From NCBI GenBank assembly GCA_946699065.1, contig CAMPDV010002894.1, positions 1 to 64,000 on the forward strand: a DNA stretch of 64,000 nt, read 5' to 3'. Below the pieces are notes generated by a model, which was given only the letters and a program-made list of their open reading frames with translations, did not search any database and was not told the origin of the DNA. A program made the translations under genes and the position numbers. The stretch is from Loxodes magnus. Taxonomy: Eukaryota > Ciliophora > Karyorelictea > Loxodida > Loxodidae. The stretch's first letter is position 1; each line of letters starts with the position of its first letter. Below are positions 289 through 59,730 of the stretch, in pieces.

Positions 289-889
289 ATTACAATCTCA
301 AGGATAAAACTAAACCTTATTAATATTTAGAACTATTAAATTTAATAATTAACTTAAATTAAAATTTGTAAATAAGCTCTTATATTTTAATTATTTTTTA
401 GTTTTTTAAAATTAAACTAAATTGTTTTAATTTCTAAATGATAAACTCTTAATCTCTTAATATAATCATTTGTATTAAAAATAGTGAATAATATAGTGCT
501 TTTATTATATAAATGTTCAACAATTTTAACTAATATCTTACTTTTATTGTATATTTAGCGTAAAAAGTTGATTGCTTAGTCTTATAAAATATATTTGAAT
601 CAAATTTAATTTAATACTCTCGTAATACCTTTTAATGCTCTTATTAGTCTAAGTATTTATCATCATTTCTTTATTAATTATCATTTTTCTTCTTTTATAT
701 AGACCTGAAATATATGCTTAATTTTTATAGTTTAAGCTATATTTTTTTAGTGCATATATTAATATTTAAAATTTTTAAACAATTAATAATTGAAAAATGA
801 TAATATCATAAGAGGAAAATAAAAAAATTAAAATATTAAATCAGATTTATCAAATTTAGTGAAGTAAAGAAATATTAAAATTAAATAGT
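289..889. other. A+T-rich spacer, no gene seen
   Basis: Shared with copy 2 (45996-47574), where a young CCHC retroposon sits inside it. The empty insertion site here lies near 340-370. No coding pattern seen. Confidence 0.4.
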
Positions 890-1229
890 AATAATGAGAA
901 GTACAAATAGACCTGAAATAACCTAAGAAAAGTATTTAGAAAAATGCTATTTTCTGTGAGAGAATAACAATTAATGAAGATGATGCTAATATAGAAAATA
1001 AATTTAGAAGATAATTTGGAATGATCTGACATAATTTTTCGAAACCTGAGGTGATGAATCTAGAGAAGAAAAATATGCTGAGTCAACCAACTCGAAAAGT
1101 TGAAAGTGAAAGAAGGAATAGACTTCCAATTCTTCAAGAAAATATTGGCTGGATAGGGAGCAGATATCTCTTTAGAAAACAGTCCCCTTCTCTGAACCCT
1201 TTTTAATTTAATTTAATTTAATTTAATTA
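890..1229 (+). mobile_element. Degenerate, 5'-truncated CCHC-ORF retroposon
   Basis: The 3' part of the ORF is recognisable by comparison with the intact element at 46073-47031: a stretch reading like N-R-L-P, then G-W-I-G-S-R-Y-L-F-R-K-Q-S, matches that element's S-W-I-G-S-R-K-L-L-R-K-Q-S. The zinc-knuckle region upstream is decayed (its first two cysteines are visible in copy 2). It ends in a (TTTAA)n-like tail. Present in both copies of the large duplication, so it is older than the duplication. Confidence 0.6.
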
Positions 1230-5530: not shown

Positions 5531-7680
5531 AAAATATGTTCTTGCTATTTAAATTTATCTAAAATGATAAATCTTAAATTAAAATGTCATAACCTAATAA
5601 AAAACTTATCTTAGGATTTATTATTCCAATAAGAGGCAAAATTTAATAATTTAACTAATTGCTTTATTTTTAATTTATTTTATTTAAATTAACTTACTTT
5701 CTTATAACTTTAAGAATTTAAATTAAAGAATAGAGAATAAACTAGGTTAATCATCTAAAAAATATAAAGCATTTTAATTATAAAAATTAATAGATGCATT
5801 TTTCTCTTACTTTTATAGTTTATTTAAGAAAAATGAAAACAATTTTATAGCTTTATAGTAATTTTTATTTAGTTTAAATTAAAGAAAACCCTGTGATATA
5901 TAAATAACTAAGATAATAAAAATAAGTTTGCTCTAATATTTATTTAAGCTTAAAGTTCTTATATTTTGAAATTATTAATGAATAAATAGAAAATATTATT
6001 AATATTATTAAGTTTTTAGATATATAATAATGAGCTAGTTGCAAGAGTATTTAAAAGTTGTATACACTAATAGCTTTTCCTAATTTTTTATAAATTGCTT
6101 CTAATAAATAAATTAATAAATTAATTATTATATAAAAATCTAAATATCACATACATTATACCATTAAGCTAGTAACTAGAAGTATATAGAGTACTTAGTA
6201 TTTATTAAAAACTAAGAAATGAAGGATCATTATAAATAAAGTTTTATATAATTGATTTTAAAATCAATTTACGTAAAATATAAAAAGCTATTTAACAAAA
6301 TTATGAAATGATTGTGCTTCAAAAATAAAAAATTTGTTTTCCTAAGAGAATTTATTAAGAAACTAAATAATAATCTACAATATTATATTAATAATTAAAA
6401 TACTTTTTATAAGTAACTTTATCCTCTTAATAAAATATAGAATCTTTTTATTAAAAAAAATTAAATAAATAAACTAAGATTTTAGTATTATACTTTTAAT
6501 TTTATTTGAACTATTTAAATGAAAACAAGGAAAAAGAAATTTATTAATTAAAAACGAAAAAAACTGAGCTTCTAGATTCTAAAAAAATAATTTGCTGATA
6601 TAAACTTATGTCCAATATACAGAATCTATTATTTAATTAAGTTTAATTTATCCATCGATTTATCTTTTAAGTTTCTATTTATTTGAACAATTATTTAAAA
6701 ATAAGATAATCTAAATTTATTAAATTATTATAAATAACCTTAATATCCTTTACTTTTTAGATTAGTTTCGTTAGTTATAATTAGAATTTGTTAACTAACT
6801 AGATGAAAATAATAATTGTATTAGTCTTATAAAGAAGCTTAATAATTTATTTTAATTATAAATAGTTTAAAACTCTTAGAATTATTAATTTGATGATATT
6901 TAAAAACTTTAACTAAAGATTTATAAATGTTAATTAAGATTAAGATTTATCTTAGTTAATTTAAACGTAAGAATTTTCACTAATATATATTAAAGTTTTT
7001 TTAACTTTTATTATTAAGTAAATAAAATTTAGATTTTTTAATATTCTTAAGATTAAACTAATAGCGTATTGCTAAATCTTAATTTGTACTGATTATAACT
7101 TATATGATTCGTTATGCTTTTATTTATATAGATTACCTCTCTTTTTATACAACTAGCTATTTTTATTTTTTTGCAAGATTTATTTCTAGAAATTTGACTA
7201 ATAAATTATTTTTTGGGATTTTTCAATTTAAATTTATCTAATAAAATATAGATAGTTCTCATCTAACTCTTGCATAGGTATAAACTGATTTTAAATTAAA
7301 TCAAAGATATAGCAAAATATCTCTATTATAAATAAATAAACTTCTATATTTTAACTTATAGTTAAAATTAATAAAGCTTAAGGATACTTTGTTTATTAAT
7401 AGTTATATAGCAATATAATTTAGAACTAATAAAAGGAGATAAAGAGGAAATTTATTAAGTTAAATTAATATTAAAACAAAAGATAAAAATAAGCAAAAAT
7501 TATCTACATTTTTAATATTTAGAACCTAATTAAACAAATTAAAGCATTTTTATAAATTTTGGTAGGCAAAAAAAAACTATTTAGATAGATAGTTATAAAT
7601 CCTAATGTTTAGCATTTTTGTATAACTAGAGATGTTAACTCATAATTATAATTATTTAATATTATATTTTTTTTTAAAAA
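5531..7680. other. Extremely A+T-rich spacer, no gene seen
   Basis: About 2.1 kb with very few G or C. No reading frame with convincing protein composition on either strand. Nearly identical in copy 2 (52180-55197), apart from a retroposon inserted there at 54088-54931. The empty site here is near 7411-7426. Confidence 0.45.
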
Positions 7681-22271: not shown

Positions 22272-22286
22272 CAAACGAAATTTTAT
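22272..22286. repeat. Target-site duplication, left
   Basis: CAAACGAAATTTTAT, matching CAAAAGAAATTTTAT at 23183-23197 with one difference. Brackets the CCHC-ORF retroposon. Confidence 0.7.
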
Positions 22287-23182
22287 AATAATGAAATTAA
22301 AATGTTCAACAGTGCCAATCTGGACACCGTTTAAAATAAGTTGTTTTATCAGCAACACTTCTCTTCATTCTTGACTTTCTAATGAAATTATCTTCACTAA
22401 GGTCTTCTCAGTTTATTTGATTTCTTGTTGTTATTATTTCAAAAGGTACTTAAAATCATTTTTTTCTGTAAATATCTCCATGCTAGTTACAATAGAGTCT
22501 CTAGTATTTTTCTTATTCTTTACGCCAAAATTTTCTCTTGAAAATCTAAAATTTTTAGCAATTCTTGTACAAATGTCACTTACTCTTACAGTATTAGCAT
22601 TTCTTCCTTACTTATCTAATTGGTTTTCGATTTATAATCTCTTTTTATTCTATCTCCATCTAATTGGTCTAATTAGTTATGTTTGTGCTAATATTCTTTT
22701 GCTTAATAAACTCCAACTCTTGTTTTTATACGAATTTTCCAAGCCTTGCTGTTTCTTATCTATGTTCAGTTTAAATGTTCCAATATGCTTGGAGTTCCCT
22801 TTCTTAATTAATAATTTTAATCTCTAAGTTATCTTATCCAAGCGATAATGAGTTTCTTAGTTCTTAATTTTCCTACTTAAGCACTTTAATCTCTTCCTAG
22901 AGATTGGATATTTCAAATATTAACTGTTAAATATTGATTTCCTTTTTAATTATCTTTGATGGAAGTTCTTTTCCTGTTATTATATTAGATTCCTTTCTTT
23001 TTATTACTTTAGGAGATGTTTATTATAGTTATTAGGTTCTTTATTAGTTTTGTAAGTGAGGAGAAGAAGACTCTTGATACTTTTTTTATGTCTGCTTTTT
23101 CTCTAGAGCTTTTTTCTCTTCTTTGCTCAAGAAAAAGCCGGGAACAAGATTTTAAGACTCCATTTTTATTTAAACTTAATAT
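22287..23182 (-). mobile_element. CCHC-ORF-only retroposon, apparently whole
   Basis: About 896 bp bounded by a 15 bp near-perfect target duplication. One ORF fills almost the entire unit, leaving roughly 19 nt on each side. No RT or endonuclease. The 3' end (minus strand: CTGTTGAACATTTTAATTTC) resembles those of the elements at 46073 and 54088. It has landed near the 3' end of a host gene. Confidence 0.8.
22306..23163 (-). CDS. ORF1-like protein with CCHC zinc knuckle
   Basis: 285 codons from ATG (23163) to TGA (22308-22306). The N-terminus is basic and Gln/Ser-rich. The middle is coiled-coil-like (L-Q-E-E-I-K-V-L-K-Q-E-N-Q-E-L-R). Then comes a perfect C-x2-C-x4-H-x4-C knuckle, K-K-C-Q-Y-C-K-S-K-W-H-L-Y-K-N-C, in which W is TGA. 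After it comes G-D-I-Y-R-K-K, the motif shared by all members of this family. Expected role by analogy with LINE ORF1: nucleic-acid-binding chaperone of a ribonucleoprotein. No enzyme domain. The frame is unbroken, so the insertion looks recent. Confidence 0.82.
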
Positions 23183-26321: not shown

Positions 26322-26338
26322 ATTCTAATTAATTTTAA
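26322..26338. repeat. 17 bp target-site duplication, right
   Basis: Identical to 25998-26014; marks the insertion of the SINE-like element. Confidence 0.85.
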
Positions 26339-26375
26339 AATAGTCTAATATAATAGTAAGGTTAGATAAGCTAAA

Positions 26376-37329: not shown

Positions 37330-37620
37330 GTAAATTTCTCAATTTTATGTTTAGTTTAAATAAATTATTATTTATTACAAAAGAATAACCCTCTCATTAT
37401 ATCTTCTCTTCATATATTTCAACTAATTTTGCTTCAAAGAATTACTTTTTATTTCTAAATTTTCTATTATCTTTATAGCTTTTATTTAAGCATAAAGTAG
37501 ATTGGAAGTTCAGACTAATAAATTATAATAATTTGTGAGTCAGTCTTGCTTTTTCATTATAGCTAATTAATTTTAGTTCCAAGATTAGATTTTTTTGGTT
37601 AAAAGTGTTAAAATAATTTG
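37330..37620 (-). pseudogene. Counterpart of the 29343-29702 coding segment
   Basis: Weak protein-level match to unit A (K-I-N-Q-L-Q-W-K-S-K, then I-I-I-Y-Q-S-E-L-P-I-Y-F-M-L-K). The frame is less clean than in A, suggesting decay. Confidence 0.35.
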
Positions 37621-38229
37621 GTAATAGGTAGATAATAGATTTTAAAGGATGACTAGAGTATTAGAGTAGTTAGTAATATTGATTATTAGGAATATTAATA
37701 AGTAGCTTTATAATATCTTAAGTTAATTTATGCTGGTAACTTAAATTAATCTTACAATTATACTAATTATATGTTTAATATTAGACTGCTAGGTTATTTA
37801 AAATAGGTAGATAAAGCTACTAATATAAAAGAAATCTAAGAGTTATATAAGTTTAGTTAAAAGAGTAAGTAAAATGGTTTAAAACTAATATATTAATAAT
37901 TAAAATTAAAGCTATTATTTAATAAGCAATCTTAGTCATAGTTAGAAGTGCTTAAGTCAATATTATTATTATAACTTATTAAATCATTAGTAGAACTAAG
38001 TTGAATCTATCATTTTAACAAATCATCCTTAATAGCCATAATATCAAGGAAAACATAACCAAGTTCTCATTACTCTTATTTGATTATACTTCAATAAATC
38101 TATTATTTTAAAACTATCTATTCGTGTTTTAGCTAAATTAGTAAGAATTGATAGAGCTTTTCATTAATCATTAATAAATAGACAATATTGATTATAATAA
38201 TTTGATATTCTCGTGTTGTTATCTAAAGG
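37621..38229. other. A+T-rich gap within unit B
   Basis: Homologous to 29703-30379; no coding frame supported. Confidence 0.35.
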
Positions 38230-40384
38230 AATTATTCCTAAAGTTTTAAAGCTAAAAGATCTTCTCAAGCAACTTTAAAAAAATGTATTTAAGAATTTTG
38301 GCCTTACTATTATATCTTTTAAAGCTTTTGCTTAATTTAATAAAAATGATAAACTCACTTTAATAGTTTTTAGCCCTTGATCTAATTTAAGCTATGGCTT
38401 AAATTAAAGCAAGATATTTTTTAAGATCTATTTAATTAAGTAACTATATCTCGTTAATTTTTTTAAAAGCTTTTTCTAAAATTATCCCTGAGTTATTCAT
38501 ATGTATCTGGATACCAGGAATAATAAGCTCTTTTTATTTCATAGGATTTATTTTTTACTTTTTCTGGCTGAATTTACTGAAGCTAATCTTCTTGAGGCCT
38601 CCAAGTATTTTATGGAGTTAGTGGCTAATTATCTTCAACTCTTAGTAATTAAGTTTCTATTCTAGTCGTAGCCATTTAAAAATCGCTGAAGCAGTTGTTT
38701 CTAAATTTTTTGTTTAGTCAATTTCTTCAGTCTTTTCTAAATTTGTACTAATTGACATGCTCCCACCTTGCCAGAATATTCTTATAGTAAACTGAGTACT
38801 TTTTTCTATTTTCTAGTAATATAAAGCTGAAACCATCCACTTTTCTCTAAGTTAAATTTTTAGTTATTTATATCTTTTTTAAGTAAGCTTCAGATACCTT
38901 TTAATAGATAAACTCCCAAACCCGATTCAATTATTTAGAGTCTTGCCAGTTATTGTACGTAATATTAATTTTATTTCTGAAGGATCAGTAATCAAAACTT
39001 CTTAGAGCTAACGTATATAATCTTAATGTAAGTTTAAGTTTGAATGTTAAAAATTCTAATTTAGTTTGCTTTAATCTTTGAGTGCTTATTTAAAGTTACT
39101 GACTATTCCATATTTATACAAGGAAAATTCCTTTTTTCCTAAGTTAATAATCCAGACGTTCCTTAAGTTTATTAAAGAAAAATCAGGGTTCCCTCTTTCA
39201 TATTAGCTAGTGACTACTTTCAATCGGCAAGCCTTTCTAAAGTAATCATACTAACATTTCAACCTATCAAGTCTCTCCCTAGCACTCAGACCCAAGAAAC
39301 TGCTTTTCTTAATTCTTTATAATTTACAAAGAAACTTACAAGTTTCACTTGCACTTATAATTTTTCCTGTCAAGCTTTAATATCTCTATCTTTACTAGGC
39401 TTTCTCTACTTTATTAATTAGATCTGTACTTTATAAATTATCTTAAAAATTCCAAAATTACTTGTGAGAAATTAAGAACACTTGAAGTCTAGCCTGTTAA
39501 AAAGAAAGAGTTGCTTTTCTAATGTCTCTTTAAATTTATTTAAATTTTGCTGCTAAGCTATAAATTATCTCTTAAAATCCGTTTTAGGCTCTTAATTGCT
39601 TTTTAGATAGAATAGCTGCTAATTTTTCAGCTTTTATAGAACTAAACCTCTTGAACTTTTAAAATCAAAAAGCTTGGCGAGTTCAAGAATAAGAAGATAT
39701 TTTTCTAGCATCTAAATAAATAATACTTACAGTATTTTTTATTTGCTATAAGATATGCATAAACTCTTAATTTTTTATGAACTTAATGAGATTCAGTTTA
39801 ATTAGTATCAACAAGAAGTCTTAGTGGTTTTCAGAATTTTAATTGCTATGGAAAATTCAGACTCTTCTAAAAAAGTCATCAGATCTGACAAAATTTTAGC
39901 CTATTTCAATGTTTGCTAAGATTAACTCATCTTAAAGTCATTAACTTAAATCTACTCCTATTAAAATTTTAGGCCTTATCACCTTTTGCATTTAAGTATT
40001 TTTTGATCGAAAAACAGTTCCAATCTATTTGCTTTCCTAATCTTTAATACTATAAATGATATACTTTTAAGGAGATGCCTTTTTTTCTTGGAGATCAAAG
40101 GTAACTTAATCTTTGATTAATCAGAAGAAAATACACTAAAGATATTCCTCAATCTACTAATTCTATTTTAGCTTTAGTTCTTTTTACTTAGATTAAACTT
40201 TTCTAGTATTTTTTTCAGAGTAAAAGTATCAGATGGGCTATAGAATAAGAATCTTCTATCAAATTAGTTGTTTTAAATAGAAAGACTAATCTTTCGTCTC
40301 TTCATTATTTTTTAAATGCTTGCTAGTCTTTATTTTTTTGATATAGACTAGTGATTCTTTAGTTGTAATTTGAATATTATCCAT
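38230..40384 (-). CDS. Paralogue B of the unrecognised helical protein, multi-exon
   Basis: ATG at 40384 (M-D-N-I-Q-I-T-T-K). The N-terminal part includes S-P-S-D-T-F-T-L-K-K-I-L-E-K-F-N-L-S-K, which reads better than the same region in A. The middle is almost identical to A. The C-terminal half is diverged but clearly homologous: Q-L-L-Q-R-F-L-N-G-Y-D-Q-N-R-N-L-I-T-K against R-L-L-E-R-F-L-N-D-C-N-K-N-R-D-L-I-T-R in A, roughly two-thirds identical. The same 32 nt candidate intron is at 39308-39339. Some frame changes remain unexplained, including a two-base difference near 40090. Function unknown. Confidence 0.55.
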
Positions 40385-40762
40385 TTTATTTGATTTTAAA
40401 ATTTTAAAATTAACTCAAACTAAAAAGTCATTAAGCTAGATTACATCTAAAGCAAATTAATAGAGTAATATTAAAGTTAAGAGATAATTAAAGTTATTTA
40501 AATATATTAATATATTTAAATAAAAAAGATTCTTAAAGTTAGAGGAAGATCTTAGCTCTATAGAAATAATAATCACCAATCTAGTTTTAATACTCTAAGT
40601 TTTATTATGTGTTTGTTATTCTAAATTTATAAGTATTTCTTATTTTTATTTAAATTATTTCTTATGAGTCAACCACATAAATAATTAAGGCTTAACTTGT
40701 ATATTCTATTAATCAATCTTACATCCAAATTTAAGACTCTATTTAAATACTTGAGGTAATAA
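39085..40762. repeat. Near-identical core of unit B (conversion tract)
   Basis: Partner of 31354-33022. Confidence 0.85.
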
Positions 40763-41104
40763 TTATTCGTTGCTTGTAGATTACCAATTAAATCTATAAA
40801 TATTTACTTAAAATATTCTAGATGTGTATCAAGCATAGGGCATAATATATTTGCTTTAAAATCTTGAGTATCTTTCTAATATTTTAAGATAACTTCAGCT
40901 AAGAAAGTTCAATGATCCACTTTAATGGAATCATAGTTAAATAAGTAAAAAAATATTAAAAAAATACTATTGAACAATTTGAAATAAAAGTAAAATAAAA
41001 TATATATCGATTAAGATAAACTAAAAAAAGAAAAAAAATTTGGTTACTTTTAAATTACGAATATTTTTATATTTAGTCATTTAGAACAAGTTAAATTTAA
41101 ACTA
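40763..41104. other. A+T-rich spacer
   Basis: Diverged counterpart of 33023-33300, then unique sequence up to the LINE-B 3' end. No gene seen. Confidence 0.4.
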
Positions 41105-41117
41105 AAAGAGTTTTGAG

Positions 41118-41159
41118 ACGTCTTTAATTGCAAGAATTGCTTCTTTCAATTATAGACGT
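41118..41159. repeat. LINE-B 3' UTR hairpin
   Basis: Inverted arms ACGTCTTTAATTG (41118-41130) and CAATTATAGACGT (41147-41159), 13 bp with one mismatch, 16 nt loop. Its position just before the 3' end fits a reverse-transcriptase recognition structure. Confidence 0.7.
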
Positions 41160-41203
41160 TAGTAAATGTTTTTAAATTGTTTTTTAATCTTGTTTACATC
41201 TCA

Positions 41204-42715
41204 TCATTTTTCTTTAATTAGTTCTTCTTTCTATTCATCTTTTGCTTCTTCCTTTTTTGCTTTCTCCATTTCTAGAATCTCAAGTCTCCTTGTCATTAGC
41301 TTCTTGTGAAATATTTTGATCTATAAGTCTAAATACTCCAATTTAGACCTTGAAAATGAGTTTAGATATTCTTGATCATATAGTATAAGGCGCCTTAAGT
41401 CATAATTTCCGATATTTTCCGATAATCAATTAATTATATTAGAATAGTACACACATTTAAAAATATGCTCGAAAGTTTCATACTCTCCACACATACAATA
41501 GGGATTATCAATGGGGTAGTGACGATCTTAAAGATCCTTACGAAAATTATAAGTTTAGGTTCTAAGTCTATATATACTGATAATTTCTCGTCTATACTAT
41601 TTGTTTAATTTCGTATAAGTAATTTGTGGAAATTGTTAAAGATTACCAAATTATTCAGTATATACTTTAGCTGTTTTCATTCTCATAAGTTTTTTAGTAG
41701 CTACTTTGTAGAAATATTGTTGTATTTTTTCTCTTATATGTTTAGTAAAAGTTTTAAGATTGGTATTATTCTATTAATTCTGCAGATCGATATTATAAAA
41801 GTCTGATAATTGCTACACTTAATCGTAATATTGAAATCCTTTTTTCCATATATTAATGAAAAGAGAGCCTATTGTTGATCTTGGAAAATAAATACTTTCT
41901 TATTTAATTTTATAGTAGAATCTGAAGAATTTTACAGCCATAGTGTGCTTAAAGGATAATCAATTCAGGTCTATATAACATGATTCATTAAATGTTGAAG
42001 TTGCTACTTAAAAAGCTTTTCTTGAAATTAATCTCATGCTTGATTCAATTCTGTTCAGAACTCCAGTTACTCCTTTTTGAATATTTCATAGTACTAAATT
42101 TCCTCCATATTCTGCTTTAGGTAATGTAAAAAGTCTACATAAAGTTTTAAAATGTCAAGGAGTTACATTCTTATATCTCATCAATTAAAAAACAGCTTTC
42201 TTCATTGCAGCTGTATATTTGAATGCAACTTCTTTGCAATGGGGATTAAAATTCTTCTTCTGATGTAGAATAACTCCTAAATATGTTACTTGTTCTTTTA
42301 AAGCAATTGATTAATTTCCTAATTATAAATTTAAAATTTATTATTTCTGATTCTTTTTTAGGAATTAAATGCATTCAGATTTGGTAGCATTTATCTTTAA
42401 ATGTGTTCATGCAAAAACTTTATTTGTTTCATTTATTAATATCTACATATACTTTGCAGATTTGGAAAGAAGAATAAGATCATCTGCCCATCCTCTAGAA
42501 GCGAAGCTAATTCTTGAATCCTGGTATTTAAATCCCAATTAGTTACTTTTACTTTCCAGATATCTAATTACTATGTCATAATACAATAATGCTAAAACTG
42601 GTCCATGAGAACTTCCTTACATAATTCCATTGTTGAATTATAAAGTTCTGGTGCTCTTTCCATCTATGATAAATGAAACAATCTGATCTGAGTAATAGAC
42701 TGGAAAAATTAGAAA
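41204..42715 (-). CDS. LINE reverse transcriptase (ORF2), 5'-partial
   Basis: About 500 codons without a break. In order: G-I-M-Q-G-S-S-H-G-P-V-L-A-L-L-Y-Y-D (42635-42580; RT motif before the catalytic box), W-A-D-D-L-I-L-L-S (catalytic Asp pair at 42487-42479 region), W-T-H-L-K-I-N-A-T-K-S-E (W is TGA), V-T-Y-L-G-V-I-L-H, Y-G-G-N-L-V-L-W, and near the end C-M-C-G-E-Y-E-T-F-E-H-I-F-K-C (zinc-binding, 41505-41460). It ends in two adjacent TGA codons (41206-41201), one of the best cues that TGA also terminates. The N-terminal RT part and endonuclease are absent. It would reverse-transcribe element RNA at nicked chromosomal targets; this copy cannot act alone. Confidence 0.88.
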
Positions 42716-42725
42716 AAAAGTTAGA

Positions 42726-43168
42726 CGAACAAAAGGGCATATCTAATGATGATTGAAGAGATCAACAGGAAGACTAAGGTTAAATAAAAAAGAGTAGTAA
42801 AGAAATGCTACTACTGCAATTCGACATAACACTTGTGAAGAAGCTGCAAGAAATTCCAAAATTTAAAGACATATTATTGGAATAAATAAAGAAGAATACA
42901 AGAACAGCAGAGGAAGAAAAAACAGATACAGTAGAGACAAATCAAAAAAAGATTGTACTTAAATGAATTAGGATACATCTACAAGAGAAAATTTAATTAG
43001 AAATAAAGATAAATTGGAAGAGAGAAAAGCAATGTGAGGAGAGAGGAGTAGAGGTTTTTGAAAATTTATTTTTATACCGGAGCAATCTGGTGTCCAGCAT
43101 AAAGAGGTGAAAATTCTCATAATTGCTAAATTTAATTTATCCTATTATTATTATTAAGATATCATTTA
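42726..43168 (+). mobile_element. 5'-truncated CCHC-ORF retroposon
   Basis: Plus-strand piece abutting LINE-B head to head. Carries K-K-C-Y-Y-C-N-S-T-Q-H-L-W-R-S-C-K-K (perfect CCHC; W is TGA) near 42817-42870, then G-Y-I-Y-K-R-K near 42972, the family motif. The 3' end has TCTCATAATTGC, AAATTTAATT and an (ATT)n tail at about 43143-43165, like the element at 54088. The coding region before the knuckle is short, so the 5' part is lost. No target duplication found. Confidence 0.75.
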
Positions 43169-43539
43169 AATGTTGTTTTCATAATTTTTATTAAATTATT
43201 TTCATATATATAGTTATATTTAGAAATTGTTTCTTTAATCTTAAATTATTTAACAAATCATCAAGAATAATATTAATTTTTCTAAAATCATAATTGCGTC
43301 TACCAATAATGCTACTTTTAATATTTGTTTAAGATTTTTCATTTTTTCCTATAATCAACTTAATATTAAATTTAAAATCAAAAGCATTTGTTTTCATTTT
43401 TGTAAATTCCCTTTTAAAGTTAATTTTACAAATATAGAAGTTAAAAAAATATTTTTATTTATTTATTCCTATTTACCTTATAAAATTAAGACTTTGACGT
43501 TCTTATTAACGCTATACATTATTAACTAAAATAATTAAT
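43169..43539 (-). CDS. Possible small protein or exon
   Basis: From ATG at 43397 the minus strand reads M-K-T-N-A-F-D-F-K-F-N-I-K-L-I-I-G-K and R-R-N-Y-D-F-R-K-I-N-I-I-L-D-D-L. Protein-like but short, with no match I recognise and no firm end (a TGA lies near 43180). May be an exon of a gene split by the neighbouring insertion. Confidence 0.3.
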
Positions 43540-43860
43540 TAAATAATTAAAAGAATGAAGGTAGCAAGATTTGGAACTGTCTGATTGTACCTCCAATCCT
43601 TAGGGAAGTCCTAGACTTTATTAAAGTATTGAAGAGAATTCATTTTATACTAAAACTATCTCTTCTATTGAATGTATACTCCATAATTATAGACTTCAAG
43701 CTCCTACTGAAGTCAGATCAGATCCTGATGTTTTGTATAACATCCCGCTATATAAATCAAGATGCCGTTCTGATAATGTAGAACGGTGCGAGCAAGGCCG
43801 TTCACGAACTCTAAAGTTAATAATTATTAATTATTAACTAGTATAAAAAAAATTAAAAGA
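43540..43860. other. GC-richer patch with perfect hairpin
   Basis: About 280 bp of distinctly higher G+C. Holds CCGTTCT (43765-43771) and AGAACGG (43780-43786), a 7 bp stem with an 8 nt loop, followed by GCGAGCAAGGCCGTTCACG. Could be another SINE or a structured RNA gene. No tRNA fold and no clear target duplication found. Confidence 0.35.
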
Positions 43861-44876
43861 TGAAATTGTAAAAATTTATATCTTTACCTGTAAGTATCTT
43901 TATGGACTCGTTACGATATTTTCTCGTTACCGAGTGGTTGGTATAATTAAAATTACTTAGAGATAATATAATATTAAGCTTTTAATTCCTTTAATGTTTA
44001 TTTCAGCAGTTCTTTAATAAATTTTTATAATATTTGTCTTACAATTTTTGGTTCTAGTTATTTAAAATTTTATTTAATAAAAAAAAAAAGGTCTTTAACC
44101 ATAAATTGAATAAAGAATCTTCCAAAATTCAGATAACTTCAACAGCTAGAGATATTTATATTTTAGATGAAAGTTTTTACTATCAAATTGAAGCAAATTA
44201 AAGTAAAAACTAAAATAATATTTTAAATAAGGTTTGCTAGATTTGATTATATTAATACTTAGTTACTTCTATGAAAATTTTATATGGTATCTCTTTAATA
44301 ATCTAGAGGTCTTATTTAAAACTAAATTCTTAAATTAGAATAAATTTAATTTCTACTTCTTCAAATAATTCACCTTAATTTATATAATAAATAAACAAAA
44401 ATGCTTAAAAGCTTTAAGAATTTCATAAACCTTTCTATCTATTGCAGTCAATATTAATAAATATAATACAAGCGTTCCTTTAATAAAATACTTAAAAGCA
44501 TAATAATTTAATAATAATTATTTATCCTTTAATATCCTTCAATTATATAAGCTTTATCCATTTTATTGATAAAAGTATGAATCGCAAGATATAATCAGTT
44601 TATAAAGATTATTATTTTAAGTTTGAAAGATTTAATTGTTATTACTACTTAGTTTATTTTATATTTATTATAAATAGGTATTATAGATCGTTTATTTTCT
44701 ATTTTTCTCTTAATATGAGTATCAATTATATTTCTATCTATTAGTAACATATAAAATTTTAATACTTAAAGATGTATCTTTAAGGATAAATAAAAGTATA
44801 TTTATATTATTAGGCTATATATTCAAAATTATAGAAATATTTTATATATCTTAGTTATAAAACTAATCACTCCTCA
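43861..44876. other. A+T-rich spacer, no gene seen
   Basis: About 1 kb with no supported feature. The minus-strand gene to the right may extend into its right end. Confidence 0.4.
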
Positions 44877-45800: not shown

Positions 45801-46056
45801 TTTCTTAGGTATCATTTTATTCCATAATAATTATTTATTTTAAGGATTTTAAAATTAGTTATTTCATAGTTCTAAAATAATTTTCTTGCTGTAATTAATT
45901 TATAAAAAAAATGAAAAATCTAATAATTAATATAAATATAATTATGATTTATCTTAACTCTTTTTCTTTCCTCAGTATAATATTATTCGTTTATAATTAC
46001 AATCTCAAGGATAAAGCTAAACCTTATTAATATTTAGAACTATTAAATTTAATAAT

Positions 46057-46072
46057 TAACTTAATTTAAAAT
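46057..46072. repeat. Target-site duplication, left
   Basis: TAACTTAATTTAAAAT, repeated at 47032-47047. Copy 1 carries a single version of this site near 345-365. Confidence 0.8.
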
Positions 46073-47031
46073 ATAAAATATGGTAGAAGGTTTCAAAAAG
46101 GTCTTCTATACCACCTCTTTCTAAGCTAAAAAGGAAGAGAGGAAGCAGGAAACCTAAATTTCTAAACACCACACGTCATCTTCCAAAACCAAACCTTCTT
46201 CTTAAACCATATAGGAGCAACTCTAAACAACACCCCCCAGACAACCCTAGAAACACTAACACGCAACAATATCGACTGAGGACCTTCCCAAGAAGCAAAA
46301 GATTAGTAACTTTCAGGCCTAGATTAGGACATTCAACCCCTACATGGACCTCGGAGATCTCAATAAAGAACAAATCTTAGGAATGACGAAGGAGGAAATG
46401 GCTAAGTTTATCTTAGCATTAATAGGAAAAAATAAAGACCTGGAAAAACAGATTGAAGAACTAGCTTAAGAACAGCAAGAGCATTTAGAAGATGAGGAAA
46501 CCCATGCTCCTAGAAACAAAAACTAAGCTGCCATGAATATTCGAATTGACGAATTCGACAGGCAGTTGGAATAGCTATATGATATGAACGAGAACATACA
46601 CATCAAGTTAGAGAAAATTGAAAACAATATTAACCTTAAAACGGAGAATATCAAGAATGATATCAAGATCTAGACAGCACACTCCGTTCCAATGGAGTTG
46701 GAAGAGGTCTAGAATAAGCAAATTGAATTAACTAAAGAAAGATACTTTAAGAAAAAATGCTTTATCTGTAGAAGAATAAACCATCTCTGAAGGAAATGCA
46801 GATAAAGAAAAGAGATACAAAAGAAAATTTGAAACGAACTAACCTAATTCTACCCAACTAGCAGTGGGAATATTTATAGGAAGAAAAGCAATATTCGGAG
46901 CAATCCACTGCGAAGACTTGAAAGTGACTGGAGGAACAGACCACCAAGAGTTCAAGTACCTATCAGTTGGATAGGGAGTAGGAAACTATTAAGAAAACAA
47001 TCCCTTCTCTGAATAACTTTAATTTAATTAA
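46073..47031 (+). mobile_element. CCHC-ORF-only retroposon, whole, absent from copy 1
   Basis: 959 bp, target duplications of 16 bp, empty site known from copy 1. Seven nt before the ATG and 19 nt after the stop, so the element is essentially one gene. G+C clearly above background. The 3' end reads CTCTGAATAACTTTAATTTAA. No RT, so it must be moved in trans. Confidence 0.88.
46080..47012 (+). CDS. ORF1-like protein with CCHC zinc knuckle, 310 codons
   Basis: ATG at 46080 to TGA at 47010-47012, unbroken. The N-terminus is basic and Ser/Thr/Gln-rich. A middle helical segment contains M-T-K-E-E-M-A-K-F-I-L-A-L-I-G-K-N-K and likely coiled coil. The knuckle is K-K-C-F-I-C-R-R-I-N-H-L-W-R-K-C (W is TGA). 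Then G-N-I-Y-R-K-K, and a tail S-W-I-G-S-R-K-L-L-R-K-Q-S-L-L. The same tail is recognisable in the old remnant at 1140-1200. Predicted RNA/DNA-binding chaperone of a retroposon particle. Confidence 0.88.
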
Positions 47032-47047
47032 TAACTTAATTTAAAAT
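47032..47047. repeat. Target-site duplication, right
   Basis: Identical to 46057-46072. Confidence 0.8.
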
Positions 47048-47574
47048 TTGTAAATAAGCTCTTATATTTTAATTATTTTTTAGTTTTTTTTAATTAAACT
47101 AAATTGTTTTAATTTCTAAATGATAAACTCTTAATCTCTTAATATAATCATTTGTATAAAAATAGTGAATAATATAGTACTTTTATTATATACATGTTCA
47201 ACAATTTTAACTAATATCTTACTTTTATTGTATATTTAGCGTAAAAAGTTGATTGCTTAGTCTTATAAAATATATTTGAATCAAATTTATATTTAATACT
47301 CTCGTAATACCTTTTAATGCTTTATTAATCTCAGTATTTATCCTCATTTCTTTATTGATTATCATTTTTCTTCTCTCATTTGTACCTGAAATATATGCTT
47401 CATTTTTATAGTTTAAGCAATATTTTTTTTAGTGCATATATTAATATTTTAAATTTTTAAACAATTAATAATTGAAAAATTATAATATCATAAGAGGAAA
47501 ATAAAAAAATTTAAAATTAGTTAATATTTAAATAAGATTTATCAAAATTTAGAGAAGTAAACAAATATTAAAAT
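47048..47574. other. A+T-rich spacer
   Basis: Counterpart of about 366-889; nothing recognised. Confidence 0.4.
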
Positions 47575-47925
47575 TAAATAGTAATAATGAGAAGTACAAA
47601 TAGACTGAGATAACCTAAGAAAAATATTTAGAAAAAATGCTACATCTGTGGGAGATAATAATTAATGAAGACGATGCTAATATAGAAAATAAATTTAGAA
47701 GATAATTTGGAATGATCTGACATAATTTTTCAAAACCTGAGGTGGATGAATCTAGAGAAGAAAAATATGCTGAGCCAACCAACTCGAAAAGTTGAAAGTG
47801 AAAGAAGGAATAGACTTCCAATTTTTCAATAAAATATTGGCTGGATAGGGAGTAGATATCTCTTTAGAAAACATTCCCTTCTCTGAACCCTTTTTAATTT
47901 AATTTAAATAATAATAATAATTTTG
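47575..47925 (+). mobile_element. Degenerate CCHC-ORF retroposon (copy 2 of 890-1229)
   Basis: Here the first knuckle cysteines (K-K-C-Y-I-C-G-R) can still be read, and the end gives G-W-I-G-S-R-Y-L-F-R-K-H-S-L-L followed by TGA, matching the intact element at 46073 including its stop. His and last Cys of the knuckle are lost. Confidence 0.65.
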
Positions 47926-48992
47926 CTAATTGTAAAATAAAGTTTTGACTTCCCTAGACTTTCCAAATATATATCTGTGAATAAATTTTGTTTCGTAGTT
48001 GTATTACACAATTTTTAAAAAATTAAGGTATGATTTCCATAGAGTATTTTCTTATTTCTTATTGGTAGTTTCTATTTTATAGACGTATCATTCAGCTATT
48101 CATAACTAGTTAAAATTTTTCAAGTTCTTTGCTTTTGATTAAGTTTGAGTTGCCTTCATTCTTTTCATTATCTTAGTTAACGATATCTAGATTAACAGTG
48201 CCAACAATTTTAATACTTTTTCTTATTTTCTTCTTTGGATAAATCTTTTTTCCAGTATCTTAATTTATTTGCTTATATTTATATACATTTTTTCTTAAAT
48301 TTACTTTTCTTAATGCTGTGTTGAGTAAATCCTTAACTATAATCAATTTTTATCATTATGTGAAATTAATTTAATGCATTTCATATAATTAATTTTCTGA
48401 AACTAAATTTTGTTTATCAATTGATTTTTAAGAAATAGCAATTCAACGTTTTGGTCTTCTTTGCAATTTATTATCTCGCATATTTTTTTCTTTATTAAAG
48501 AAAATCTCTTCATACTATGTAATTTATGTTTTAATTTGTTCAATTTCATTTTAAATAATTTATTATTTTTAGTTTCAGAATTAGATCATTCAGAAAGACA
48601 AAACATTACTTTCTCCTCTGAAGACAAACTAGATTCTAGTTTTTCTTTTTTATTTCTCCTTTTTAATTCTTATAGTAATGCTCTACACCATTTTAAATCT
48701 ATTAAAACTAAAAGACTGAATGATATAAAAAATAAATGGTAGGCTAACAATAACTTTTTACTAGCACTACAAGTGAGGAGTAGAAAACTGAAGGGATATA
48801 GCAAGCTACAACCTAGATTTTGTAAAAAATCATTCAAACCTTCTTACAAATATCCTGCAGCAAACTTGTCACTTCATCGACTGCTGAGAAGCCTTGGAGG
48901 AAGCAATATATTTAGCCCCTCAGTAATCATTTTAAACTCTTTAATCACCACAGGAAATCGAATTATAAATAGTCGTTGCTGAGTTATAGCAG
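47926..48992 (-). pseudogene. Minus-strand coding remnant (copy 2 of 1230-2312)
   Basis: Same protein-like minus-strand stretches as in copy 1. The plus strand also stays open here, but its T-rich, hydrophobic translation looks like the shadow. Confidence 0.35.
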
Positions 48993-51838
48993 ATAATTAA
49001 TAAATAAATTTGACTATAGAACGCGTAGCCCCTGTTGATGCGCAGCTCTTTACATATTCAATATATGTCTGTTTCTTCAAGTATGCCTTCAGGTAATAGA
49101 AATTTTTCTCTTATAAGTTGCATATCTTCCTCATTTTCCTTTAAATTATATCTTATTCTTCTGTCTTCTAACTATCTATGCTTTATTAGATCTATATTGA
49201 AAGCTTAATTTATTTTTTCTTATATATCTTACTAATTTTCATTTCTAATTCTTTTCTTCTTAATCATGCTATTATACATTCATAAAAATTATACTTTTCC
49301 TACTCTATATTATTTTCCAATTTATTTTTTTCATTCAATTTTTTTTCTATTTATCCTTTTTCTAATATATCTTTGATATAATCTTTTATTATCAAATCAT
49401 CTTTTGCTCTTTTTTACCCTTTTTAGGTTATAATAAATTTCTCGAATTTAGACTTACCTCATATTATATAAAAAAGTTCCATTCTTTATCTTCTATTCTT
49501 ATTGCTCTTAGATTTCAAATACAAATTTATCTTCCTTCTTTTTATTCTGAACATTTTTCTATGATAATCCTTTCACTTTCTCTTGCATTATTACAGATAG
49601 GGCATTGACTTGTTACAACTAGGTGTCTTTCTTTTCTATTTTTATTGTATCTCGGGTAGTTGGACGATCCCGTCACATATTTATCAAATCATTTTCTGAA
49701 CTGTAATGTTGTTATCATTTATTCCATTCTTTCTCTATCTTCTACGTATACTCTATATTCTCAAATTGCACGATCAATATTTTTCTTCTCTTTTTTATTA
49801 ATTATTACCATCATCTATAAAAATATCTTTGTCTTCAATTCTTAATTCTAATTTTTTCCCGTGCAATATTATTCAAATATAGAATTCTCTTCCTTACTTA
49901 GGTCGAACATTAATCTGTCAACTGTTTTTCCTTAGTCACCTATTAATCTGCCTCTTAGTCTCAACGTTTTCTGTCATATGTAGTGTTTAAATTTCAGAAA
50001 ATACAGTTCATGTTCTAACATCTCATTTTGCACTTAAAAACGAACATTTATGATTGCTTTTGAAGATCATCTCTATATTATTTATGAATGCTCCATCATT
50101 TATTTTCCTACAAATTATTCGCAATATGGAATCACTTCTGTCCCATAACCAAAAACTGAGCTTACAAAGGTTTTTATCATATTTCCTGCATTATACGGTG
50201 TTAATCCCCTTATTCATTGTTATTTTTCCCAGTATTTAAGTTTGCATCTTTTATGTGGCTTCTAGTCTATTCTTCATGTATTTTTCAAAACTGAAGTTCT
50301 CTTCTATTATATGACCTAGGTACTAAAGGTCGTTACTCTTTCGATCCGTAAATTTCCCACTTTAATGGCATTTCCAATATTTTCTCAGTTATTATTTTCT
50401 GCTACTTTTCATATAATTCTTTTTGCTTTATCTACAATTTCCAATTTGTGCTTTTCTGCCTATTAAGTTAAATTTTCGATTACTTCCTCTAATTGTTCCC
50501 ATTCACTTATTAAGGCTTGGTATTCTGCGTATGCAAAACATCCTGCATATATTTCATATGTTCATCCCTCTTCATTTTTATAGTTTATATTAATTCCTAG
50601 CTTTTAATCTTCCAAGTTATAGAGAAGTCTTGCTATTATCAAGTTAAATAGCCTCGGCGACGTTATGCCTCCTGTTTAATTCTTTATTTGTCGAGAATGA
50701 TTTCGCTATTTAATCAATGATTTTCAGTTTAATTTCTTCTTCATAGTAGAAGTTTTCTAGAAGTTTAATTATCTATTCTGGTACTTTTAGATCATTTAGG
50801 ATTTATCATATATCTTTTCTTTGTACTGTTTCATAAGCTTTCTTAATATCAACAAATATTACAAAAACATCTTTTTAGTTCCGCATCAATGATTTCTATA
50901 CTGTTCTTAGATTGAAGATTTATAGTGCGCATGGTTTACCTTTTTTGAAATCATATTAGTATTCACTTTCATCATTATTTATCTTCCTTTTTTTGTATTA
51001 TAATACTATGTATTATTATTTCATCTCCTAAGGTATTATAAATCATCTTAGCTATCCTTTTGCAAGTTACTTCTATTAATTTTTTCCCACCTTTTAAAAT
51101 TTTTCATATATATTTCATCAGATCCTGCTACTTTTTATTTCGCCAATTAGTTAATGCTTTCTCAAATTTCATATTCGTTTACCACTTTTTGTCTTTTGTT
51201 TAAAAATTTAGTTGGTAACATATTATCGTCATATTCATATAACTACTATCATTCATCGCTGAAAATCTTAACATCTTCTTTGATAAGGTTACTAGCTAAT
51301 TATTTTTTCTATTAAGCCGGTTTTTTAGTTTCTTCCACATTTCTGTCAGGTTTCCTTTGATTAAATTTTTCATAAATAGGTTAAGTTAGTTTCTTTTATC
51401 TTTTTTTCTTGATTAAATGTATTCTTGTCTTACTCTTTGGCAATCTCTATATTTCTCGTTTTATTGATTTTTATTAATTTCTTTATTGTTCTTTATCCTT
51501 TATTTTAATTGTTTGCTGCATTTTCTGAATATTATTACATTATTTTGTTGTTTCTGAGTAATTATATATCTTAAAGTTTTATGCTTTACTGTTCCACAAG
51601 TCATTTAAACTCTTTCTTGAATCTTTTTTAATCATTTATAAATATTAATAGGTTATTATATTCTCATCCATATTTTTTTAACTTTGCTAATATTAGTGTT
51701 CTTATATAGCAGCTTTCTTTATTTAAGAATAGCTTTATGAAATTATAAACGTGCAATATTTTTATAATATTTTCAGGATTAAGAAATTAAATTAAAATTT
51801 TATTTTTTAATTAAAAATCTTAGTTTGCTAATTTCTAC
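48993..51838 (-). mobile_element. LINE-A (copy 2), broken
   Basis: Same parts as 2313-5184, slightly better preserved: G-G-I-T-S-P-R-L-F-N-L-I-I-A-R-L-L near 50690-50630, F-A-Y-A-E-Y-Q-A-L near 50540, C-P-I-C-N-N-A-R-E-S near 49605-49570. The 3' tail is at about 48996-49052. Confidence 0.8.
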
Positions 51839-52179
51839 ATAATAATAAATAAATAAATTCAATTATAGAGCGCGTAACATATCAACTGGGCGCAGCTCTT
51901 TAATAAATATTTTTTAAGTTAGAAAAATTTCTCCTTGGAAGATCCTCTAGAGCTTTTCTCCTTTGAAAATTCTGTCTTTTAATAGGGCATGGTTGGAATA
52001 ATGTCCCAATAGATTTAATCGTCTGGCATCTTTCATCAACCGTTACTCAATGCCTCCAGTTCTTTCTTGCTTGGTTCCTGCAAGATTCTTGCTCAGTTTG
52101 TCATTCCTGAAGTATTTACTGGTACTCGAGTTAAGTTAATCTCAGTTGTAGAATTGCTTCTCCCTATTTAGAATATATA
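51839..52179 (-). mobile_element. Short 3' fragment of a LINE-A-type element (copy 2)
   Basis: Tail module at 51840-51905, coding remnant upstream on the minus strand, as at 5185-5530. Confidence 0.5.
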
Positions 52180-54071
52180 TAATAAAATATGTTCTTGCTA
52201 TTTAAATTTATCTAAAATGATAAATCTTAAATTAAAATGTCATAACCTAATAAAAAACTTATCTTAGGATTTATTATTCCAATAAGAGGCAAAATTTAAT
52301 AATTTAACTAATTGCTTTATTTTTAATTTATTTTATTTAAATTAACTTACTTTCTTATAACTTTAAGAATTTAAATTAAAGAATAGAGAATAAACTAGGT
52401 TAATCATCTAAAAAATATAAAGCATTTTAATTATAAAAATTAATAGATGCATTTTTCTCTTACTTTTATAGTTTATTTAAGAAAAATGAAAACAATTTTA
52501 TAGCTTTTTAGTAATTTTTATTTAGTTTAAATTAAAGAAAACCCTGTGATATATAAATAACTAAGATAATAAAAATAAGTTTGCTCTAATATTTATTTAA
52601 GCTTAAAGTTCTTATATTTTGAAATTATTAATGAATAAATAGAAAATATTATTAATATTATTAAGTTTTAGATATATAATAATGAGCTAGTTGCAAGAGT
52701 ATTTAAAAGTTGTATACACTAATAGCTTTTCCTAATTTTTTATAAATTGCTTCTAATAAATAAATTAATAAATTAATTATTATATAAAAATCTAAATATC
52801 ACATATATTATACCATTAAGCTAGTAACTAGAAGTATATAGAATACTTAGTATTTATTTAAAAACTAAGAAATGAAGGATCATTATAAATAAAGTTTTAT
52901 ATAATTGATTTTAAAATCAATTTACGTAAAATATAAAAAGTAATTTAGCAAATAAAAATTATGAGATTATTGTGCTTCAAAAATAAAATAAAAAATTTCC
53001 TAAGAGAATTTATTAAGAAACTAAATAAGAATCTACAATATTATATTAATAATTAAAATACTTTTTATAAGTAGCTTTATCCTCTTAATAAAATATAGAA
53101 TCTTTTTATTAAAAAAAATTAAATGAATAAACTAAGATTTTAGTATTATACTTTTAATTTTATTTGAACTATTTAAATGAAAACAAGGAAAAATAAATTT
53201 ATTAATTAAAAACGAAAAAAACTGAGCTTCTAGATTCTAAAAAAATAATTTGCTGATATAAACTTATGTCCAATATACAGAATCTATTATTTAATTAAGT
53301 TTAATTTATCCATCGATTTATCTTTTAAGTTTCTATTTATTTGAACAATTATTTAAAAATAAGATAATCTAAATTTATTAAATTATTATAAATAACCTTA
53401 ATATCCTTTACTTTTTAGATTAGTTTCGTTAGTTATAATTAGAATTTGTTAACTAACTAGATGAAAATAATAATTGTATTAGTCTTATAAAGAAGCTTAA
53501 TAATTAATTTTAATTATAAATAGTTTAAAACTCTTAGAATTATTAATTTGATGATATTTAAAAACTTTAACTAAAGATTTATAAATGTTAATTAAGATTA
53601 AGATTTATCTTAGTTAATTTAAACGTAAGAATTTTCACTAATATATATTAAAGTTTTTTTAACTTTTATTATTAAGTAAATAAAATTTAGATTTTTTAAT
53701 ATTCTTAAGATTAAACTAATAGCGTATTGCTAAATCTTAATTTGTACTGATTATAACTTATATGATTCGTTATGCTTTTATTTATATAGATTACCTCTCT
53801 TTTTATACAACTAGCTATTTTTATTTTTTTGCAAGATTTATTTCTAGAAATTTGACTAATAAATTATTTTTTGGGATTTTTCAATTTAAATTTATCTAAT
53901 AAAATATAGATAGTTCTCATCTAACTCTTGCATAGGTATAAACTGATTTTAAATTAAATCAAAGACATAACAAAATATCTCTATTATAAATAAATAAACT
54001 TCTATAATTTAGCTTATAGTTAAAATTAATAAAGCTTAAGGATACTTTGTTTATTAATAGTTATATAGCAA
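52180..54071. other. A+T-rich spacer, no gene seen
   Basis: Copy 2 of 5531-7410. Confidence 0.45.
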
Positions 54072-54087
54072 TATAATTTAGAACTAA
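54072..54087. repeat. Target-site duplication, left
   Basis: TATAATTTAGAACTAA, repeated at 54932-54947; single in copy 1 at about 7411-7426. Confidence 0.9.
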
Positions 54088-54931
54088 AATAAAATAAATG
54101 GATTAATCTCTTCGACTCTCAAAAAATTAACTTAGAAACCTAAAGAGAAAAGCGGCAAAAGAAATTTAGAAAAAATAATAACAATAGGAGGAGTCAAGCT
54201 CTTCTTCAGAAGGTAAAGCTATGGTAGGATAAATAAAGATAAGTTAACCTAAAAACGAAACTAATCAAAAACTTTAAATTTAATTAGACCAAATGTAAAA
54301 ATTAATCTCAAATTATGAAGAAACAACTTACAACTTAGGCGAAAAAATACGGGAACTAATGAGTAACAAAGAAGATTAGAACAACGAATTACTAATACTT
54401 AGAAGATAACTTATTTGTAGCAAATTAATAACAGAAGAATAACTCTGAACTTAATCATAATAAAATTTTAAATATGACACAAAAATGGAAATAGAAAAAA
54501 TACCAATAGAATTAAAAACAGAATTGAATCCAGAAAAAGAAATGATTGCTACAAGTTTCATTAAAAGATTAGAAAATATAGAAAATAAATTATCATAAAA
54601 AAGAACGAAATAAAGACAATAATAAAAACTTTGTTGATGTTGCAAATCAAATCAACATATTTTAAAAAACTGTTGATAATGAAAGAAAATAAACGAATAA
54701 GAGCAGAAAAGAACATGGAGACAACTCAATAAACTATGAATAACTCCAACAGGGATCTACAAATAAAAGCTTTTTGCAAGACCACTTGAACGGTTACAGT
54801 GGTAACCTTCCACTTAATAAAAAGGTCGTGGATCACACCCACATTAAAAAAACTGTCCGCAGGAACTGGTTGCAATTCCAGAGAATGCAAAACTCTACTA
54901 ACTTTAAGTATATTATTATTATTATTATTAT
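54088..54931 (+). mobile_element. CCHC-ORF-only retroposon, absent from copy 1
   Basis: 844 bp with perfect 16 bp duplications and an (ATT)n tail. The 3' end is CAAAACTCTACTAACTTTAA, then TATT and (ATT)n. Ten nt precede the ATG. No RT. Inserted after the large duplication, or lost cleanly from copy 1 (unlikely). Confidence 0.9.
54098..54900 (+). CDS. ORF1-like protein with CCHC zinc knuckle
   Basis: From ATG at 54098: Q/K/S-rich basic N-terminus, a coiled-coil-like middle (I-Q-L-D-Q-M-Q-K-L-I-S-N-Y-E-E), then L-C-W-C-C-K-S-N-Q-H-I-L-K-N-C (C-x2-C-x4-H-x4-C; the first W is TGA), then T-G-I-Y-K-Q-K. No TGA occurs in frame before the element end, so the real stop is unclear. Either the last part is frame-shifted or termination happens beyond the tail. 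End given is approximate. Confidence 0.8.
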
Positions 54932-54947
54932 TATAATTTAGAACTAA
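54932..54947. repeat. Target-site duplication, right
   Basis: Identical to 54072-54087. Confidence 0.9.
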
Positions 54948-55197
54948 TAAAAGGAGATAAAGAGGAAATTTATTAAGTTAAATTAATATTAAAACAAAAG
55001 ATAAAAATAAGCAAAATTATCTACATTTTTAATATTTAGAACCTAATTAAACAAATTAAAGCATTTTTATAAATTTTGGTAGGCAAAAAAAACTATTTAG
55101 ATAGATAGTTATAAATCATAATGTTTTAGCATTTTTGTATAACTAGAGATGTTAACTCATAATTATAATTATTTAATATTATATATATTTTTTAAAA

Positions 55198-55705
55198 CCG
55201 CCATAGTTGTTCGAAGGTGAACAACAAGGTCATCTTCATCTGAGGTTGGGGAAGTTAAGTACCCATAATCGACTTTATGTCTTCCTCTGCTTTGGCTTGG
55301 CCTCGAGACATAAGATTCTTAGACCTTTGACACTGGCTCAATTTAAATTTAATTTAATTTTGGAACTAAAAAGAAATAATACTGCGAGCTTCATTAGAGG
55401 TGGGGAATTTAAGTACCCATAATTGACACATGTCGTCCTCTGCTTTGGTGATGCAATGAGACACAATCCTGCCATGTCCTTGGACCTCCAACAAGTATTA
55501 AAGATTACGAGTATTCTAAAATTATATCAGTATTGAACATTTTTATCAGTACTGAATAATTATACCAGTATTGAACAAGGTTTATCAGTATCTGATAATT
55601 TTATCAGTAACAAACATTCTTGTCAGTATGAAACATTTTTTATTAAGAGTTGCACACCAACGAGAGTGCTGCGCGCTCTATAATAAAATTTATTTATTTG
55701 TTTAT
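55198..55705 (+). mobile_element. SINE-like element with LINE-A tail (copy 2)
   Basis: Same structure as 7681-8190: leading hairpin, two diverged units, short tandem array (55529-55637), tail with GCGCGCTCTATAATAAAATTT. Substitutions relative to copy 1 show no coding pattern. Confidence 0.6.
55529..55637 (+). repeat. Short tandem array (copy 2)
   Basis: Variants of TATCAGTATTGAACATTTT, as at 8008-8120. Confidence 0.7.
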
Positions 55706-58700: not shown

Positions 58701-59730
58701 TAATATTATATCTCATACAAATTATTATTATTTCATTCTAATTCATCTAAAGTCTTCATCTATACTTTATTATATGCTTAGATTTATTACCTTTTAAAGG
58801 CAGGTAAAAACTAATTGTTGAGAACTAAATAGAAAATTAGGGTGATTTAATTAATGTAAAATAGATAATTTCCAAAATTATTGTTCTTTAAATTCTAATA
58901 ATTGTACTGCTTTGCGAAGATTTAAATTTGGCTTATATTTGATATATAAAATAGATAATTGACTAAGTTTTATACCTCTAGCACACATATAAGAGCACTA
59001 ATAATAAAAAAGTATGTAGCATCTACTAAAATATAAAAATAATCCTATAATTGTATTTTTTAGTTTCCCATCTATTTATGATGCTTATATTTTTTAATTA
59101 AAATAATCATATCCCTTAGTTCAAAGTCCTGCTTAAAGTAAAAGTTCAAAATTAAGACTAAACTTTATCTAATGAATTTCTAAATTTATTTTATCTTTAT
59201 AAGTCTATTATAAAGAGAGAGAAAGTATTTAGCATATCCTATTTATTATATAGGCATTTTCTTATGATTAATAATTTCTAAAAAGTAGCATTAGCTATTA
59301 AATTAATAGTTAAACAGTAAATACTTATAAATCTAAAATTATAAAGGTTATTTTGCTTGTTGATATCTACAAATATTTATTAATTTAGAGCTGGCTAATT
59401 TAAGCATACCAAATATTAATTATTTATAAAATAGTCAAAGAAGCTAAATAATAAAAGCTACTAAAATTACACCTAGCCTTAGTTTATATTAGCTAAACTA
59501 GTTAGTTCAAATTTAATTAGTTATAACAGAAATAAAGAGAGTTCATTGTTAGTTATATCCTTATCTTAAATAAATGTATGTTTATTCCTTATTAAATAGA
59601 AAATTGTATATTTGTACAATATTAAACCTGCTAAGTTAAATAAGTGTTAGTTCTATAGCTTCTTTATTTGTATTAATATAGCAAGCTGTATTTAATTTAA
59701 TTTTAATTGCTTTAATTTATAATAAAAGGA
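55706..59730. other. A+T-rich spacer, no gene seen
   Basis: Copy 2 of 8191-12200. Confidence 0.4.

Follow-up and report, generated by a model that had tools for sequence, protein, structure and literature searches.

A probable family of non-autonomous retroposons in Loxodes magnus that carry a single CCHC-knuckle protein

In the window, which is the whole 64,000-nucleotide stretch of Loxodes magnus contig CAMPDV010002894.1 analysed here (GC 23.8%), four units encode a protein with a CCHC knuckle, and two of these units are complete insertions that are absent from a duplicate of the segment around them. Throughout, TAA and TAG are read as glutamine, and TGA inside an ORF is read as tryptophan. 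The features are as follows.

46073..47031, + strand: unit 1, complete insertion of a probable one-gene retroposon, 959 bp; not present in the duplicate segment, flanked by an exact 16-bp target duplication
46057..46072: target duplication of unit 1, left copy, 16 bp, exact
47032..47047: target duplication of unit 1, right copy, 16 bp, exact
46758..46799, + strand: CCHC knuckle of unit 1, with TGA translated as W at one position
46866..46886, + strand: GNIYRKK motif of unit 1, placed in a beta hairpin by a low-confidence model
350..365: empty target site of unit 1 in the first segment copy, 15/16 bases as in the duplication
54088..54931, + strand: unit 2, complete insertion, 844 bp; not present in the duplicate segment, flanked by an exact 16-bp target duplication
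54072..54087: target duplication of unit 2, left copy, 16 bp, exact
54932..54947: target duplication of unit 2, right copy, 16 bp, exact
54632..54673, + strand: CCHC knuckle of unit 2
7414..7429: empty target site of unit 2 in the first segment copy
22287..23182, - strand: unit 3, probable insertion, 896 bp, by homology and an imperfect duplication
42726..43168, + strand: unit 4, fragment with a knuckle (42806-42847) and GYIYKRK
914..1226, + strand: old decayed copy, with indels through the knuckle and a 3' end conserved with unit 1
47611..47904, + strand: duplicate of the old decayed copy

Units 1 and 2 each lie between target duplications, and this ORF is the only one they contain. In unit 1, a 7-nt leader precedes the ORF (46080-47012; 310 aa and TGA), and the remaining 19-nt 3' part ends in TTTAATTTAATTAA. 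Unit 2 has a 10-nt leader, an ORF starting at 54098, and a tail of ATT repeats. No in-frame TGA follows residue 214 of unit 2, a position before its GIYKQK motif. Unit 2 inserted recently and has no TGA in frame close to its end, so mobile copies do not all have to encode a normal protein. Its 3' part, 54740-54908, has 39% GC, compared with 24% in the remainder of the unit and 17-26% in the flanks, and Rfam reports no known RNA in this 3' part. Unit 3 consists of a 19-nt leader, an ORF (23163-22306; 285 aa and TGA) with the knuckle at 22558-22599, and a 19-nt 3' part.

The knuckle pattern CX2CX4HX4C (C..C....H....C) has exactly four matches in the six frames of the window (TAA/TAG = Q, TGA = W), and all of them are the named units. 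In 4/4 units, a G-(x)-IY[KR]xK motif is positioned 10-60 residues downstream of the knuckle. A chance origin of the CCHC pattern is ruled out, because 0/100 simulated windows (first-order Markov, 2-kb blocks) contain any match. The initial annotation, which described a perfect CCHC followed by G-x-I-Y-K/R-x-K in four units, is therefore borne out. The C-terminal blocks of the units are related, with 0/500 shuffles scoring as high in 6/6 unit pairs, and the tail of the units carries an invariant W in addition to G-(x)-IY-(K/R)-x-K. Among three pairs compared over the N-terminal 60 residues, two are suggestive (12 and 23 of 500 shuffles as good) and the third gives 156; over the middle region, one of three pairs is significant (3/500), and the other two give 208 and 309. 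The protein identity between units 1 and 2 is about 26%. In all, the knuckle family is largely real as an observation.

An AlphaFold2 model from the four sequences (mean pLDDT 61) predicts helices over residues 104-218, followed by the knuckle, a helix, and a hairpin that holds the GxIY motif. No fold relative of the model is found at E 0.001 or better. A coiled coil is predicted upstream of the knuckle; in unit 4, a coil-like stretch upstream of the knuckle is seen by eye in a different frame from the knuckle. Searches of Pfam, PDB, and PHROGs yield no convincing relative of the unit proteins; in particular, the PDB matches to HIV nucleocapsid are weak (E about 0.5) and not significant. Viral contigs give 13 and 114 pattern matches with 0 confirmed, a search that could miss relatives using a ciliate code. 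A window-wide profile of the blocks reveals no convincing copy beyond 914-1226 and its duplicate.

The invariant W of the tail is encoded by TGA in unit 1 and by TGG in units 2, 3, and 4, and the aligned glutamine columns mix TAA, TAG, CAA, and CAG. Units 1 and 3 both terminate at a TGA located 19 nt before the 3' end of the unit. In the karyorelict code, UGA means stop or tryptophan depending on its distance from the poly(A) tail (PMC11441545), and the codon usage and terminal TGA of the units, as read from the sequence, fit this code. Because the code is all-sense, an open ORF by itself means little. In-frame TGA is not clearly depleted: the counts in frame and in the other two frames are 3 versus 3 and 10 for unit 1, 5 versus 3 and 3 for unit 2, and 4 versus 2 and 5 for unit 3. 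In a crude composition scan, unit 2 and the first part of unit 1 come out in the correct frame, and a different frame is chosen for unit 4 and the last part of unit 1; unit 3 is not listed by the scan.

Between unit 1 and the old copy, mismatches at the three codon positions number 17/13/34 and 17/13/32 over 46800-47012 (p 0.0009 and 0.0022), and 43/30/59 and 39/27/59 over the whole aligned part of the unit 1 ORF, 46640-47012 (p 0.004 and 0.0009), where the two values refer to the two duplicates of the old copy and are not independent of each other. The knuckle region alone has no third-position excess (7/4/4 and 4/3/5). We read the third-position excess as protein-level constraint between two lineages of the family. 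The identity of the old copy to unit 1 is 66% over 46800-46900, 72-74% over 46901-47012, and 82-88% over the last 19 nt; further upstream, the similarity is weak at best (9/200 shuffles as good in the best of six frame tests). The repeats around the old copy are just 9-10 bp long, no better than chance as a target duplication. Of the "old remnants" mentioned in the initial annotation, one is found, present in two duplicates (914-1226 and 47611-47904). Unit 4 has no target duplication at its borders and looks like a decayed fragment. Both unit 4 and the old copy may be 5'-truncated.

The evidence for mobility comes from a self-comparison of the window. Positions 289-16474 and 45996-64000 are two copies of one segment in direct orientation, with an offset of 45.7-47.5 kb. 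The copies align in three blocks: 289-365 with 45996-46072 (97.4% identity), 331-7429 with 47015-54087 (95.7%), and 7393-16474 with 54913-64000 (98.7%). The second copy is interrupted by units 1 and 2, and the first copy has a single uninterrupted target at both sites. The ungapped identity at the junctions is 75/77 and 63/66 for unit 1, and 98/100 and 90/100 for unit 2. Over about 16 kb of duplicated sequence, just two length differences longer than 21 bp are found between the copies, and both are insertions of this family. The sole other difference of at least 15 bp inside the aligned blocks is one of 21 bp at 56254-56274. The longest exact repeat in 400 random boxes is 14 bp, as against the 16 bp that flank units 1 and 2.

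The empty sites and the exact 16-bp duplications together indicate that two divergent members of the family inserted after the segment copies separated. The segment copies are either a tandem duplication or two haplotypes in one contig, and the mobility argument holds for both alike, unless the assembly is wrong at the insertion points. With the empty sites in the duplicate segment, mobility stands on firmer ground than the initial annotation could claim. Its further claim of 15-16 bp duplications at three units holds for units 1 and 2, with 16 exact base pairs each, and is imperfect for unit 3, whose flanks 22272-22286 and 23183-23197 match at 14/15 positions with one mismatch and include 10 exact base pairs. 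An exact repeat of 10 bp or longer occurs in 89/400 random boxes, and the duplication of unit 3 is therefore weak taken alone. Elsewhere in the window, 28224-33342 and 36304-41097 form an older duplication, 75-87% identical in four blocks; the window has no tRNA in a bacterial-code scan and no Rfam match at the gathering threshold.

Insertion with a target duplication and without terminal repeats is thus exact and matched by empty sites for units 1 and 2, imperfect for unit 3, and without a duplication for unit 4. When the first 60 bases of units 1-3 are compared with the last 60, the longest exact matches are 5-6 bp in direct and 5-7 bp in inverted orientation, which indicates that these units have neither LTRs nor TIRs. 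An LTR element is rejected on the lack of terminal direct repeats in units 1-3 (longest 5-6 bp), and so is a gag-only LTR element of the type named TR-GAG. A DNA-level element, cut-and-paste or other, would also insert precisely with a 16-bp target duplication, but is very improbable: units 1-3 lack terminal inverted repeats, the ORF has no transposase match, the tails are A/T repeats, and DNA transposon domains are rare in L. magnus according to PMC11441545.

The 3' tails are TTTAATTTAATTAA in unit 1, ATT repeats in unit 2, and CATTATT at the third placed end; none is poly(A). Unit 1 and the old copy have a common 3' end, and a 3' sequence shared by all four units is rejected, as units 1-4 share nothing there beyond short A/T repeats. 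If a helper recognises the 3' sequence, such unlike ends would call for more than one helper or for loose recognition. A common 3' RNA fold is likewise rejected for the six ends folded (z -0.01, 0.94, 0.76, -0.94, -3.05, and -0.87). The 3' end of unit 3 (22287-22372, minus strand) folds better than its shuffles (z -3.05; 3/200 as good), and this fold is not seen in the other five ends.

At the other end, the 5' boundaries lie 7, 10, and 19 nt before the ATG in 3/3 units with placed ends, although those of unit 3 rest on the imperfect duplication. For a random point, an in-frame ATG starts within 19 nt in about 5-13% of cases. The short leaders of 3/3 units therefore speak against random 5' truncation.

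The unit ORFs have no Pfam match to RT or endonuclease. By Pfam, RT and endonuclease domains are also absent from 21,800 of the 64,000 bases of the window (12001-20000, 38001-44600, and 26001-28000 in six frames; 401-5600 in five of six). Motif patterns for RT, applied to the whole window, give four YxDD-like matches (two loci, each duplicated) and one LPQG match, which by eye are not RT-like. No LINE is found in the parts of the window searched by domain or motif. The claim that the units lack reverse transcriptase accordingly stands, as units 1 and 2 hold only this ORF and it has no RT or endonuclease match in Pfam. In one of the scanned regions, 12001-20000, matches to the Chlamydia PMP repeat (PF02415) occur in two forward frames (E 1.8e-6 and 4.8e-7); the region is perhaps a large repetitive gene with short introns.

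These data support a protein-coding, non-LTR-type, RT-less mobile family with target duplications, and its non-autonomous LINE-type retroposition is well supported. We propose, with a probability of roughly 0.7, that the units are non-autonomous non-LTR retroposons that encode one protein each and whose RNA is copied by the enzyme of a separate LINE. Two other origins have to be weighed against this reading. The units could be truncated or internally deleted two-ORF LINEs, representing either an ORF1 part or the C-terminal knuckle of ORF2. The ORF2 proteins of some LINE clades end in CCHC, and the possible 5' truncation of unit 4 and the old copy would agree with such an origin. More than 30,000 repeats of L. 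magnus are classed as LINEs, most of them incomplete (PMC11441545). However, the 3/3 placed units start 7-19 nt before an in-frame ATG, at a chance of about 5-13% each; the region upstream of the knuckle has a predicted coiled coil and no RT match; and RT and endonuclease domains are absent in the regions scanned. Truncated LINEs are therefore improbable.

Alternatively, the units could be retrocopies, as processed pseudogenes, that LINE machinery made from one CCHC-protein gene of the host or from a few. The target duplications are compatible with this, and so would be the brevity of the leaders and 3' parts, given short UTRs in ciliates (in L. magnus, the median 3' UTR is 41 bp; PMC11441545). 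However, poly(A) is found at 0/3 ends, and two recent insertions of one family at about 26% identity need several parents. The presence of an older copy of the same family also argues against it. We consider host-gene retrocopies improbable as well.

In the preferred reading, the complete element of 0.84-0.96 kb would encode a protein whose N-terminus is poorly ordered and is followed by a long coiled coil, one CCHC knuckle, and a short tail that is conserved. Units without a copying enzyme probably borrow the enzyme of another element. The RNA of the element would most likely be copied by target-primed reverse transcription, with the endonuclease and RT supplied by a separate LINE that accepts its 3' end, which has short A/T-rich repeats and no poly(A). 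The protein of the element itself would coat its RNA, in the manner of an ORF1/Gag chaperone. Descent of this protein from a LINE ORF1, by the logic of HAL1, is plausible, and neither Pfam nor PDB yields an ORF1 match. Four points are thus inferred: an RNA intermediate, a helper LINE, a role as chaperone, and an ORF1 ancestry. LINEs, perhaps of the same or a related host, are candidate helpers and encode RT and endonuclease, unlike the units; complete LINE families of L. magnus include rnd-1_family-27 and -19. In Blepharisma, retrotransposon families are classed as LINE or LINE/RTE-X (PMC9942856).

It is unlikely, though conceivable, that the units and the LINEs form a two-component system, in which the ORF1-like protein resides on its own one-gene elements and the RT on LINEs. 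Elements of the RTE type frequently have no knuckle ORF1 and carry tails of short repeats, which is why we keep this idea. It would tentatively mean several long-separated lineages of one-gene elements, two of which moved recently, and RT-bearing LINEs that are perhaps RTE-like without an ORF1 of their own. In this ciliate lineage, the classical two-ORF LINE would then exist as two mobile units independent of each other, which we regard as doubtful.

To our knowledge, the ORF1-only or gag-only non-LTR elements known are the mammalian HAL1 and the telomeric HeT-A of Drosophila. HAL1 is L1-derived and ends in poly(A), whereas the units have no poly(A) and their protein has a CCHC knuckle; in addition, strongly diverged members coexist among the units, and the insertion of two of these is younger than the separation of the segment copies. 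HeT-A, whose Gag has a CCHC as in the units, is telomeric and about 6 kb long, whereas the units are shorter than 1 kb and have 16-bp target duplications. The likeness lies in what is encoded: HAL1 (half-L1) is a non-autonomous L1 derivative with only ORF1p (PMC5753468), HeT-A is a Gag-bearing non-LTR element that lacks RT and depends on RT from elsewhere (PMC5537684), and the units encode one protein and no RT. Among the titles and abstract starts listed in the literature, no ORF1-only or CCHC-only ciliate retroposon appears; the family may be among the 915 in the supplement of PMC11441545, in whose main text the terms ORF1, CCHC, zinc finger, and nonautonomous occur 0 times.

Recently mobile examples with an ambiguous stop code and a knuckle protein constrained despite strong divergence would indicate that carrying the chaperone alone can last. 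They would also offer a small natural system in which to study the contribution of ORF1-type proteins where the RT has another source. As Loxodes is without extensive DNA elimination, the family would also bear on how such a genome lives with active retroelements.
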